A stretch of DNA of 64,000 nt from NCBI GenBank assembly GCA_029261555.1, contig JAJDBB010000031.1, positions 1-64,000 of the forward strand. Reading direction: 5' to 3'. Position 1 is the stretch's first letter. The number at the start of each line of letters is the position of its first letter. Both the position numbers and the translations under genes were made by a program. Below are positions 10,438-50,416 of the stretch, piece by piece. This DNA comes from Nitrospinaceae bacterium (GTDB lineage: Bacteria; Nitrospinota; Nitrospinia; Nitrospinales; JACRGP01). The notes under the pieces were generated by a model. It did no database searches and was not told the DNA's origin. It saw only the letters and a program-made list of their open reading frames with translations.

Positions 10438-10663
10438 AATGCCTCCGGCGGCCGGGCCAGCGCCCGGAGGCAGAGTTTGAGATGCAAACCCCACCCAAAC
10501 TCGTAGCACTCCCCGCATAAGACGCCTACTGCCCCTACGGCGAGTAGCCGGGCCAGCGCTCGGAGACAGAACTTGAGATGTAAATCCACCCAAGCTCGTA
10601 ACGTTCCCTGCGTAAGACGCCTACCGAGTCCAGCGTCACGCTGGCCAGCGCCTGCCTGGCTGT
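10438..10663 (+). repeat. two tandem diverged copies of an intergenic hairpin-containing repeat
   Basis: Copy 1 GCCGGGCCAGCGCCCGGAGGCAGAGTTTGAGATGCAAA...CCAAACTCGTAGCACTCCCCGCATAAGACGCCTAC; copy 2 GCCGGGCCAGCGCTCGGAGACAGAACTTGAGATGTAAA...CCAAGCTCGTAACGTTCCCTGCGTAAGACGCCTAC, followed by CCAGCGTCACGCTGG palindrome. Confidence 0.85.
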
Positions 10664-10773
10664 AAGTTTTGCCGTCCCTGGCTTTCTAAATTCCGGTTTT
10701 CATTTTCTACAATGACCGCGCAAGCTCTTCCATTTAAAGGAGTTAAAATTGGAATTCCAGCCCAACAAATTGG

Positions 10774-38027: not shown

Positions 38028-39014
38028 TTATTTGCCCTGGCGACGGGCGAGAATCTCCGCCGCTTCCTTGGCGAAATAGGTCAATATCATCTTAGCGCCG
38101 GCACGCCGGATGGAGAGGAGGGTCTCCATAATGATTCTCTCCCGGTCCACCCATCCATTTTGCGACGCCGCAACGATCAGCGAATATTCCCCGCTGACGT
38201 TGTAGGCGGCCAGGGGAACGTTGATCTCCTGGCGGACTCGGTAAATGATATCCAGATACGCCAGGGCGGGCTTGACCATGACCATATCGGCGCCTTCCTC
38301 AATGTCCTGCAAGACTTCGCGAATGGCTTCGTCGCTATTGGCCGGATCCATTTGATAGGTGGAGCGGTCGCCAAACTTGGGAGAGGAGTCGGCGGCCTCG
38401 CGAAATGGACCGTAATAGGCGGAGGCGTATTTTGCCGAATAGGCTAAAATCAGGGTCTCGTTAAATCCGGACTGGTCCAGGGCTTTCCGAATAGCCCCAA
38501 CCCGTCCGTCCATCATGTCCGAAGGGGCTACGATATCTGCTCCGGCCTGAGCGTGGGTCTGCGCCATTTTAGCGAGTAATTCCAGGGTGGCGTCGTTCAG
38601 GATTTTTCCATCTTCCACCAGACCACAATGCCCGTGGTCCGTGTATTCGTCGATACAAACGTCGGTGATCACGATCATTTCCGGAATCGCCGCTTTTATC
38701 TCCCGTACCGCGCGTTGAACGATTCCATCCGGATTATAGGCTTCGCTTCCTACTGCGTCCTTTTTGTCCGGAATACCAAACAATATCACCGCTGGAATTC
38801 CCAGATCCGCCGCTTCCTGGACGTCCAGGATCATCCGGTCAAGCGAGAAACGAAAAATCCCCGGCATAGAGCTTATCTCGGTTTTCACGTCCTTGCCCTC
38901 GCAGACGAAAAGGGGATAAATAAGATCGTTTACGGAAAGGGAAGTCTCCTCCACCATTCGCAAAATGGCGGAATTTTTTCTCAGTCGTCGGGATCGATGG
39001 GTTGGAAATGGCAT
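38028..39014 (-). CDS. hemB: porphobilinogen synthase (delta-aminolevulinic acid dehydratase)
   Basis: [70 protein letters not shown]. Confidence 0.96.
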
Positions 39015-39300
39015 GAGAGCTTAACCTGAAGATTTGAATTTCGTTGAATAATCTATCCGGAAGCGGGCGGGCTTTGAGGATAAAAGAACTTGCAGACGGC
39101 TTATATTAGCACAGGAAGGTGGGTCAAACAATTCGGGCCGCGCCGGGTTTTTGACGCAACCGACAGACAAACCGACCTCTAAAAAAACACAAAATAAACA
39201 AGTTATTTCAAATAGTTAACAAAATACTTCTAAATTAAAATCTAGCGGTATTGTTTTTGCTTTATTACTTTTATAACAAAAATTTATGGAGGATCTACTC

Positions 39301-39516
39301 ATGAATATCGCGGAAACGACAACGGACCAAGGCTACGAAAAACTGAATGCGGCAATTTTAAAGGCACTTTCTTCTTCCGACGAGGTGAAGCAAATATTGA
39401 CAGATTTTCAGGAAAAAAACCTGATCGATGAAATCGCCGCGGTCAACCTGGTTTTGAGCCTGGAGGAATTGGAAAGCCTGATCCCGGAGCAAAACGCAAA
39501 CAGCGCCTCTCTTTAA
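39301..39516 (+). CDS. small hypothetical protein (71 aa)
   Basis: GGAGGATCTACTC-ATG strong RBS; MNIAETTTDQGYEKLNAAILKALSSSDEVKQILTDFQEKNLIDEIAAVNLVLSLEELESLIPEQNANSASL. Confidence 0.68.
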   Translation: MNIAETTTDQGYEKLNAAILKALSSSDEVKQILTDFQEKNLIDEIAAVNLVLSLEELESLIPEQNANSASL

Positions 39517-39537
39517 CACTCTAGGAGACGCTCGCCT

Positions 39538-39720
39538 TTAATTCTTAAAAATCTTGCTGTCGCAGGAAATATATTTTATTTGTCTCATGGGAATGATCAA
39601 CACTTCGTCCTGAGTGGTCACCTCCAGAACTTCCAGGTCGTCGCTGATATAGTGCTTTTCCGTTTTTTCCAGCTCCAACTCCTGATTATCCACAAAAACA
39701 ACTTTTAGCTTGTATTGCAT
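39538..39720 (-). CDS. small hypothetical protein (60 aa), beta-rich
   Basis: GGGAGAG RBS; MQYKLKVVFVDNQELELEKTEKHYISDDLEVLEVTTQDEVLIIPMRQIKYISCDSKIFKN; 20 bp downstream of radical SAM gene. Confidence 0.7.
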   Translation of the reverse strand: MQYKLKVVFVDNQELELEKTEKHYISDDLEVLEVTTQDEVLIIPMRQIKYISCDSKIFKN

Positions 39721-39740
39721 GTTCTCTCCCGGGACTTCAA

Positions 39741-40949
39741 TTAATTAGGCAGAACGACGGCCTCGAATTTTTTAGCCAGCGGTTCGTTTAAATAATCTTC
39801 CACGTAATTTTTAAGGTAACCCTTCTCGTACAGTTTTTTGTTGGAAAGGTGGGAGTTGATTTTATGCAGGATACGAAACCGTTTGCGGGGAAACTCAGCC
39901 TTGAACTCCTCGAAAGATTCGCCGGAGATATCCCGGTAATCGTTGGAGGAGCGTTCCATAATGACCTTGGGAAGATACACCATGGTCTCGTTGGTCAACC
40001 GCCGCGCCACGTCGCGGAAAGTCAAAAGGGTTGAGCAGTCGGAATCCCCCCCCAAAGTGGCGTTGGGAACGTAAAGATATCTGGCCCGGTTTTTCCTGAA
40101 TAATTTGAGAACGCGGTAAACGTTTCCCGCCATCGCCACCGTATCTTTCTTCTCCAATTCGCAGGCGTCGAACGCTTTGAGAATTCGCTTCCGGTTCAAA
40201 AAAGCGGTGATGTAGGATTCCGTGTGAATCATTTGAGTGTTGGGCAACTCCGCCTGATAAATAGCTCTGGCCTCGCCGGCCAGAGAGTTCCTGCCAGTCC
40301 GCATCAGGGCGCAGGTATCGTCGTCGATATATTTCAAAGCCGTCAGGCATCCCATCCACAACAACACGTTCGGGTTGATCCGGGAAATGGCCTTAGCGTC
40401 CTGGGACATGGTGTTGGGTCCAAAGGAATAAAAATTAGCCGAGGTAACCGCCGGACCGTCCAGCACCTTATACACTTGCTCCACAGTCGGCGCATGCGGC
40501 ATCAATTTTTTTCGCGGCTCGGACAAGGTGATGACGGAAAGCTCGAAATTGATTCGCCCCGGATATTTCTCAGCCAAACGATTGATTCTCTCCGGCTCCG
40601 CATAACCCACCGTGAAAAAAATCACGTCCTTGTCGGTGGTATCCAGAAACTCCTCCAACCAGTACATGGCCTTGGGATGAAGAAACAAATCCGTCCACTC
40701 CATGTACTCGTTGCCGCCAATGATCCAGGATTCGCCTTTTTTGGTCGGCTGTTTTTTAACTTCGTTCAGAATGAATTCCCAATGCTCTTGGGTGGTGAGG
40801 GGGACGGGGAAGGTTTCACGATAGCTGATATCTTTTTCGTAGCAAAAGGCGCATTTGACCGGACAGGTTTTTCCAAGGCTGATGGGGATTTTCCGGTCGT
40901 TAATTTCTCTGCGAAAGATTTCGTAAAGTTGCGCCGTATCCTGCGACAT
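39741..40949 (-). CDS. radical SAM protein of unknown function
   Basis: CX3CX2C motif in GKTCPVKCAFCYEKD; C-terminal NATLGGDSDCSTLLTFRDVARRL...VYLPKVIMER faintly reminiscent of DUF512. Confidence 0.85.
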   Translation of the reverse strand: MSQDTAQLYEIFRREINDRKIPISLGKTCPVKCAFCYEKDISYRETFPVPLTTQEHWEFILNEVKKQPTKKGESWIIGGNEYMEWTDLFLHPKAMYWLEEFLDTTDKDVIFFTVGYAEPERINRLAEKYPGRINFELSVITLSEPRKKLMPHAPTVEQVYKVLDGPAVTSANFYSFGPNTMSQDAKAISRINPNVLLWMGCLTALKYIDDDTCALMRTGRNSLAGEARAIYQAELPNTQMIHTESYITAFLNRKRILKAFDACELEKKDTVAMAGNVYRVLKLFRKNRARYLYVPNATLGGDSDCSTLLTFRDVARRLTNETMVYLPKVIMERSSNDYRDISGESFEEFKAEFPRKRFRILHKINSHLSNKKLYEKGYLKNYVEDYLNEPLAKKFEAVVLPN

Positions 40950-41024
40950 GCCATCCTCCGAAATTCCAGAAAAATACGGTCAATAGAAAAGACGATCAAC
41001 CGCCAAAAAAGAGGCCCGTAAAAA

Positions 41025-41357
41025 TCACCCCCAGGCTTCAAAGGCTTCTTTAAGGGATTTGTCCATTTCTATTTTTTGCCGGTCGCTTTCGTCCAATTCG
41101 TCCAGTAAGCTTTTGAGGTGCTCGGCGGCGCAACCCATGTGAGCGATACTCTCCTGGATCAGTTTAAAACCTCCGGCCTTGAGCTTTTTGATCAACTCCT
41201 TTAAATGCGCTTCTTCATAGGGGTTGACGGAACTGCACTTTTGAAAGCTTTCGATGGCTTCCTTATATTTTTTGTCCTGATGAAATCCATAACCGCTTTT
41301 AAAATATTCCAAGGCCTCGACAACCTGAAAAACGGTGGATAATTTTCGATCACTCAT
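41025..41357 (-). CDS. small hypothetical protein with TPR-like helix pair (110 aa)
   Basis: YFKSGYGFHQDKKYKEAIESFQKCSSVNPYEEAHLKELIKKL. Confidence 0.66.
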   Translation of the reverse strand: MSDRKLSTVFQVVEALEYFKSGYGFHQDKKYKEAIESFQKCSSVNPYEEAHLKELIKKLKAGGFKLIQESIAHMGCAAEHLKSLLDELDESDRQKIEMDKSLKEAFEAWG

Positions 41358-41400: not shown

Positions 41401-41479
41401 CCGCCAAGCTCGTAACGTTCGCCGAATAAGTTAAGCCTACTGGGCCCAGCGTCACGCTGGCCGACGCTTGCCCGGCTGG
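41401..41479 (+). repeat. dispersed intergenic repeat copy
   Basis: CCAAGCTCGTAACGTTCGCCGAATAAG...GCCTACTGGGCCCAGCGTCACGCTGGCCGACGCTTGCCCGGCTGG shares long blocks with 10.6 kb copy. Confidence 0.85.
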
Positions 41480-41482
41480 AAC

Positions 41483-41884: not shown

Positions 41885-42682
41885 ATGGATACTGAAATGT
41901 TCCCAAATGCAGAAGAAATCCAAGCCTGCCTCAATACCGTTTCCATCGGCAAAAAGATGGTGGTTATGGAATCCGTAGGTTCCACCAACGATTTTATCAA
42001 ACGTAAAATCAAAGCCGGAGAACCAGCGGGACTGTGCGTATTGGCGCATCGCCAAACCCATGGCCGAGGGCGGATGGGCCGGTCCTGGATTTCGGAACCC
42101 GCCGTAGGCCTTTATTTTTCCATTTACCTGAAGCCTGAATTGAGTCTGGAACACCTTCCCCGCCTCACTCTCATGACCTCGGTGGCCATGGCCCGGGCGA
42201 TTGACCCGTTCTGCCCTACGCCGTGTCGCCTGAAATGGCCAAACGACTTGTTGATAAACGGTAAGAAGATTTGCGGTATTTTATCGGAATATTGCGCTCC
42301 GCCGGACCCGGAAGGGGTGATATTGGGAATCGGCATCAATGTTAACCAGGACGCCGAACGCTTCCCCGCTGAATTTCGCGATACGGCCACTTCGCTCAAA
42401 GCGGAAACCGGCGCGACGGTCGACCGGTCGGCTCTCTTCATTGCAATCCTTCAACAACTGGACCGGGAGTACCAAACCTTTCTTTACGAGGGCGAATGCA
42501 AACTTGCTCAGGAATGGGAACGCCACAGCGATATGTTGGGACGAGAAATCACCCTGAACCAATCCGGAACCCAATTTCAGGGCGTCGCCAGGGGCCTCGA
42601 TAAAATGGGGAATTTGATGCTGGAAACTCCGGAAGGCCAACTCATAAGTTTTGACGCGGGCGAGGTCACGTTGAGAACCTGA
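41885..42682 (+). CDS. birA: biotin--[acetyl-CoA-carboxylase] ligase
   Basis: ESVGSTNDFIKRK, THGRGRMGRSWISEPAVGLYFSI, LKWPNDLLINGKKICGIL, GIGINVN. Confidence 0.95.
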   Translation: MDTEMFPNAEEIQACLNTVSIGKKMVVMESVGSTNDFIKRKIKAGEPAGLCVLAHRQTHGRGRMGRSWISEPAVGLYFSIYLKPELSLEHLPRLTLMTSVAMARAIDPFCPTPCRLKWPNDLLINGKKICGILSEYCAPPDPEGVILGIGINVNQDAERFPAEFRDTATSLKAETGATVDRSALFIAILQQLDREYQTFLYEGECKLAQEWERHSDMLGREITLNQSGTQFQGVARGLDKMGNLMLETPEGQLISFDAGEVTLRT

Positions 42683-50285: not shown

Positions 50286-50416
50286 TCATAGCCGTGAGCG
50301 GCTCTTATGCCGGGCAAGCGCCCGGTGGCAATATTGATTTGCAAACCTAACGTCGCTTTAGCGCTCACCGTATGAGCAACTCCTACTGGGTCCAGCGGCA
50401 CGCTGGCCAGCGAGTT
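50286..50416 (+). repeat. dispersed intergenic repeat copy
   Basis: ATCATAGCCGTGAGCGGCTCTTATG; CCGGGCAAGCGCCCGG hairpin; CCTACTGGGTCCAGCGGCACGCTGGCCAGCG. Confidence 0.8.

Follow-up and report, generated by a model that had tools for sequence, protein, structure and literature searches.

A DUF512-like radical SAM enzyme and a co-inherited 60-residue partner point to an undescribed two-part modification system in Nitrospinota and Nitrospirota

The DNA analysed here, a 64,000-nt stretch from the MAG of a Nitrospinaceae bacterium (Nitrospinota) that is referred to as the window, carries the gene of a 402-amino-acid radical SAM enzyme, present as a single copy in the genome, together with three small genes (Table 1). 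The coordinates of the four open reading frames agree with the layout described in the original prediction. The ORF of the 60-amino-acid protein, designated b60, lies 20 nt downstream of the enzyme ORF, and that of a 110-amino-acid TPR-like protein lies 75 nt upstream of it. The ORF of a 71-amino-acid protein converges on b60 and has GGAGG ahead of its ATG at 39301, in line with the strong ribosome binding site expected there; an alternative in-frame ATG at 39286 would give 76 amino acids, but the relatives favour 39301. The enzyme gene is flanked by hemB and a biotin ligase gene. The dispersed repeat and the AT-rich leader noticed earlier are both present, and nothing links either of them to the enzyme and b60. 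The repeat measures 50–78 nt in its three copies, which are 78–81% alike and share the palindromic core CCAGCGTCACGCTGG; the core pattern has five matches against 0.04 expected. Searches of Rfam and of anti-phage defence families gave no match.

Table 1. Features of the locus and its surroundings (window positions)
Feature	Position	Strand	Basis or remark
hemB	38028-39014		Flanking gene
AT-rich leader of the convergent gene	39180..39285	+	82% A+T
Convergent helical protein, 71 aa	39301..39516	+	Not a core component
b60, 60-aa Sm-like five-stranded barrel	39538..39720	-	Adjacency, co-occurrence, model
Radical SAM enzyme, 402 aa	39741..40949	-	ORF; CX3CX2C, Pfam, fold and hhalign matches; putative C-terminal cobalamin-binding, DUF512-like domain
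N296-x3-G300-x7-L308-L309-T310-x2-D313	40011..40064	-	Matches DUF512 N-x-F-F-G...G-L-L-T-G-x-D, ungapped in hhalign
G78-G79-N80-E81, SAM-binding 'GGE'-type motif	40707..40718	-	Invariant
[4Fe-4S] motif C29-x3-C33-x2-C36, then Y37	40842..40865	-	Invariant in 80 relatives, Y37 included
110-aa protein, one TPR-like hairpin and conserved QESIAxMGCAAxHL motif	41025..41357	-	Operon partner in Nitrospinales only
Dispersed repeat	41404-41481; 10590-10665; 50359-50408		Three copies
Biotin ligase gene	41885-42682		Flanking gene

The neighbours of the enzyme gene were counted in 49 other Nitrospinota loci, several of the misses being due to the end of a contig. The b60 gene was found downstream and on the same strand in 48 of them, the exception being interrupted by a contig end, and the convergent gene in 42. 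The TPR-like gene was directly upstream in 46, and it often overlaps the enzyme gene by 4 nt, which suggests co-translation. Since the small ORFs are conserved in position across these loci, they were taken to be genes, and all four genes are kept across Nitrospinales. Thus, the proposal of a radical SAM system accompanied by conserved small proteins was borne out, and the enzyme falls outside the characterised families with a known substrate. The convergent protein, 71 amino acids long here, has about 130 in most Nitrospinales, where a conserved C-terminal stretch follows a variable linker. As a single set, however, the four genes hold together within Nitrospinales only; the enzyme and b60 alone are common to Nitrospinota and Nitrospirota, and b60 is the sole small protein that the two phyla share. 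The 71- and 110-amino-acid proteins are Nitrospinales add-ons, their genes being missing from the Nitrospirota loci. The Nitrospirota have no true homologue of the 110-amino-acid protein: the matches are generic TPR stretches that mostly end before the signature motif. The TPR-like protein was therefore rejected as a core part, and it may at most be a clade-specific adaptor in Nitrospinales.

The amino acid sequences of the enzyme and 80 relatives, its predicted structure and the Foldseek matches place it in the radical SAM superfamily, with the CX3CX2C motif (C29-P-V-K-C33-A-F-C36) in a partial TIM barrel, although the Pfam Radical_SAM match is below threshold (5.2e-5). Apart from the motif cysteines, C305 is the only cysteine invariant in the 80 relatives, so that the SPASM cysteine cluster is absent, as had been supposed. 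The faint resemblance of the C-terminus to DUF512 proteins and Mmp10 that had been noticed proved correct. Pfam DUF512 was matched by 16 of 27 relatives (best 3.4e-4), and its cut-off was exceeded in one of the genomes checked, G147 (25.3 versus 25 bits). The AlphaFold2 model, built from a 27-row alignment, has a pLDDT of 87.9 and a pTM of 0.85. When it was compared with 350,542 PDB chains using Foldseek, nine matches had E < 1e-3, all of them pfDUF512 (9cg2, 4.8e-10), Mmp10 (7qbs-7qbv, about 1e-8) or csDUF512 (9cg1, 2e-7). An hhalign comparison with canonical DUF512 proteins from Nitrospirota gave a probability of 95.5% (E 1.6e-8) over 285 columns. No match came from searching PDB sequences with the enzyme, its profile or b60, or from a plasmid tblastn search, and a viral fold search at E < 0.001 returned generic radical SAM proteins alone. 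We found no paper naming this enzyme family in Nitrospina or Nitrospira.

Experiments have established that DUF512 binds cobalamin and that four proteins carrying it make methylcobalamin (PMC11659888). Mmp10 and the DUF512 enzymes have been named class 2 cobalamin radical SAM enzymes (PMC13331322). The enzyme described here has the architecture of this class, a radical SAM domain followed by a C-terminal DUF512-type domain, and it shares the fold of the DUF512 proteins (PF04459; csDUF512 and pfDUF512) and their N...G...LLT..D motif. In csDUF512, the residue under the cobalt is L366 (PMC11659888), which is the first leucine of the LL/LI pair in the DUF512 signature. By alignment alone, the invariant L308 corresponds to it and is the predicted lower-axial residue. 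The fold match, the DUF512 profile match and the invariant L308 led us to infer a class 2 cobalamin-dependent radical SAM methylase. There are also differences from the DUF512 proteins. The enzyme has no PDZ domain, it has a dedicated partner in b60, and identity to the window's copy is at least 56% inside the family but 11–17% to the solved class 2 enzymes (TM 0.5–0.57). The family and canonical DUF512 proteins were never found together among the 158 Nitrospirota genomes sampled (G083-G239), 27 having the former and 94 the latter, an exclusion that partly reflects clade membership.

Comparison with Mmp10, the McrA arginine C-methyltransferase, showed a common fold, a leucine below the cobalt and an aromatic residue right after the third cysteine (Y37 in the enzyme, Y23 in Mmp10). 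Where the enzyme has GGNE, Mmp10 carries GGD (PMC11659888). The iron loop of Mmp10 consists of four conserved cysteines, C35, C38, C45 and C48 (PMC8828468). Because these are absent from the enzyme, whose invariant cysteines are C29, C33, C36 and C305, it is not an Mmp10. Equivalents of the cluster ligands, the Mmp10 tyrosine and the csDUF512 aspartate, are not clearly conserved. To our knowledge, there is no MCR in these bacteria. The class 1 B12-binding radical SAM methylases, such as PhpK, TsrM and TokK, presumably share its chemistry, methyl transfer via methylcobalamin, but have an N-terminal B12-binding Rossmann domain that the enzyme lacks.

The model of b60 (pLDDT 91.5) is a closed five-stranded Sm-like barrel. 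Its fold matches, YgdR-type lipoproteins and Hfq, are weak (best Foldseek E 0.011). It resembles Sm-like/Hfq, ROF (YaeO; E 0.057) and YgdR/DUF903 proteins in being a five-stranded small barrel, but it has no sequence similarity to any PDB chain and no apparent signal sequence. Conservation is even along its length, with 13 invariant residues in 60. Y3, D11, H23, S26, D28, E30, P44, Q47, K49 and C53 are invariant across both phyla in a 50-row alignment that includes some repeat copies.

The distribution of the enzyme was surveyed in 77 Nitrospinota and 396 Nitrospirota genomes. It was found in 59 of the former (28 of the 31 good ones), including one genome outside Nitrospinales; all 12 genomes from the other families lack it. 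Convincing matches were found in 83 Nitrospirota genomes, two weaker ones (E about 1e-3) being set aside. Identity is about 70% within Nitrospinales and 56–60% to the copies from Nitrospirales, and the gene tree splits cleanly by phylum, except for a few MAGs titled as the other phylum. Among the Nitrospirota, 82 genomes have the enzyme and b60, one has the enzyme alone, four have b60 alone and 309 have neither, and the associated Fisher p value of 7e-79 overstates the case because there were few independent gain or loss events and the 396 genomes are by no means independent samples. In Nitrospira, the genomes without the enzyme group together on the tree, and a tree of a neighbouring gene requires at least two gain or loss changes. 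The association does not depend on adjacency: the two genes are side by side in only three of the 82 genomes (G079, G367 and G455) and apart in the rest, for example by 1.15 Mb in G137. In a midpoint-rooted tree, the lineage in which they are neighbours (L064, L071) diverges at the base of the Nitrospirota part. In L071, proC directly precedes the pair, and in many of the other Nitrospirota loci examined it adjoins b60 alone. This context suggests that b60 kept its place and the enzyme gene relocated. The eight enzyme-minus Nitrospira genomes examined also lack b60.

Nearly all occurrences of the enzyme are in lineages that have nitrite oxidoreductase (NXR), yet about half of those lack it. 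This distribution could mean that the NXR lifestyle and the system are linked, with b60 as an accessory or licensing protein and the enzyme modifying something else, such as a respiratory or nitrite-oxidation protein. NxrA is present in 72 of the 83 enzyme-positive Nitrospirota genomes, and the absence from the 12 Nitrospinota genomes of other families fits as well. However, the enzyme is absent from 69 of 141 NxrA-positive Nitrospirota genomes, a set that takes in some lower-identity homologues, and from two Nitrospinota genomes with an NXR-like protein, and NXR and the enzyme could share clades with no functional link. We regard this explanation as possible but doubtful. Since NXR does not depend on the enzyme in those 69 genomes, a role as an obligatory NXR maturation factor was rejected. 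The NXR-like protein of the Nitrospinota outside Nitrospinales (G002 and G003; L128) is a molybdoprotein of 1170 amino acids, just 38% identical to the NxrA of Nitrospinales in the one compared, and possibly belongs to a distinct clade.

A second explanation holds that the C-terminal domain has degenerated from a DUF512 and lost cobalamin binding, the enzyme being an ordinary radical SAM enzyme. In csDUF512, the cobalamin base is contacted by T323, a threonine whose counterpart in the alignment is A274, which is variable in the family. Three residues ahead of the axial leucine, there is an odd loop, G301-D302-S303-x-C305, that is absent from canonical DUF512 proteins; S303 is invariant in the 27-row alignment and the other loop residues in all 80 sequences. 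Serine takes the base-contact role of this threonine in some class 1 enzymes, so A274 weakens the case for cobalamin binding and does not exclude it. The fold is retained, and N296, L308, L309, T310 and D313 are invariant, which makes a degenerate domain unlikely. Judging from the alignment, C305 would be near the corrin.

It was also considered that the enzyme may be a step in a small-molecule pathway, together with the tandem B12-binding radical SAM enzymes and the PhzF-like isomerase encoded beside it in Nitrospira. This neighbourhood is conserved in most Nitrospirota loci. Nonetheless, the block is intact in all eight of the enzyme-minus Nitrospira genomes, where only the enzyme gene is missing, members of the B12 radical SAM family occur in all of 19 enzyme-minus genomes, and the pair is not adjacent to the enzyme in the window. 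Such a pathway is improbable, and a three-enzyme biosynthetic cluster was rejected because the pair persists without the enzyme gene. The tandem enzymes (634 and 653 amino acids; L053:5650-9671 and relatives), followed by the PhzF-like gene in Nitrospirales, score below the cut-offs of every NCBIfam radical SAM family that they matched, and nearly all Nitrospinales, the source genome among them (G000:C127, G000:C54), carry more than one or two members of the family. Finally, the RiPP locus originally suggested by an orphan radical SAM gene flanked by small conserved ORFs, with one small protein as precursor peptide, another as recognition element and the enzyme as maturase, is very improbable and was rejected on the fold and conservation of b60, an evenly conserved, predicted folded barrel with no leader and variable core and no PqqD-type winged helix, while the enzyme has no SPASM or twitch cluster, the Nitrospirota loci lack the 71- and 110-amino-acid genes, and the identified neighbours are hemB, a regulator and the biotin ligase gene, with no exporter or protease.

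The enzyme represents a family that is new and well supported, belongs to an enzyme class defined only recently and has a co-inherited partner and a predicted chemistry, and the evidence points to an undescribed two-part modification system formed by the enzyme and b60. We consider it probable that it is a class 2 cobalamin-dependent radical SAM enzyme (Mmp10/DUF512 type), most likely C-methylating a protein residue, that works only with b60. By analogy with the class, C29, C33 and C36 would hold the [4Fe-4S] cluster, GGNE would bind SAM and the C-terminal domain would bind base-off cobalamin above L308. A first SAM would methylate cob(I)alamin, and a second one would give rise to the 5′-deoxyadenosyl radical, which would abstract a hydrogen from an unactivated carbon, and the methyl group would then be transferred to this carbon. 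In Nitrospinales, the TPR-like protein, presumably co-translated with the enzyme, may act as an adaptor. The role of b60 is a guess: it could quite conceivably be the methylated protein itself, something short of an even chance, or, with somewhat less confidence, a subunit that presents or licenses the substrate. A more specific version, in which C-methylation of the Sm-like b60 by the enzyme would place a protein with a possible RNA-binding or regulatory role under B12 gating, in nitrite oxidisers that are auxotrophic for B12, is speculative and, as a whole, rather unlikely. If true, the enzyme methylating b60 would be a bacterial counterpart of the Mmp10–MCR pair.

Among the class 2 enzymes covered in two recent publications, the substrate is known for Mmp10 alone, and about 6000 DUF512 proteins have no known substrate (PMC11659888, PMC13331322). 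The family described here has a genetically tied 60-residue partner, which turns the substrate question into a two-protein test in the tube. Its presence in aerobic nitrite oxidisers bears on whether the choice of fold follows lifestyle, a question raised in PMC13331322. Marine Nitrospina and Nitrospira marina depend on B12 from outside (PMC8115632; for Nitrospinae auxotrophy, PMC8026999), a need that in N. marina has been attributed to ribonucleotide reductase, MetH and methylmalonyl-CoA mutase (PMC8115632). The enzyme would add another step that consumes B12 in the dominant nitrifiers of the ocean.
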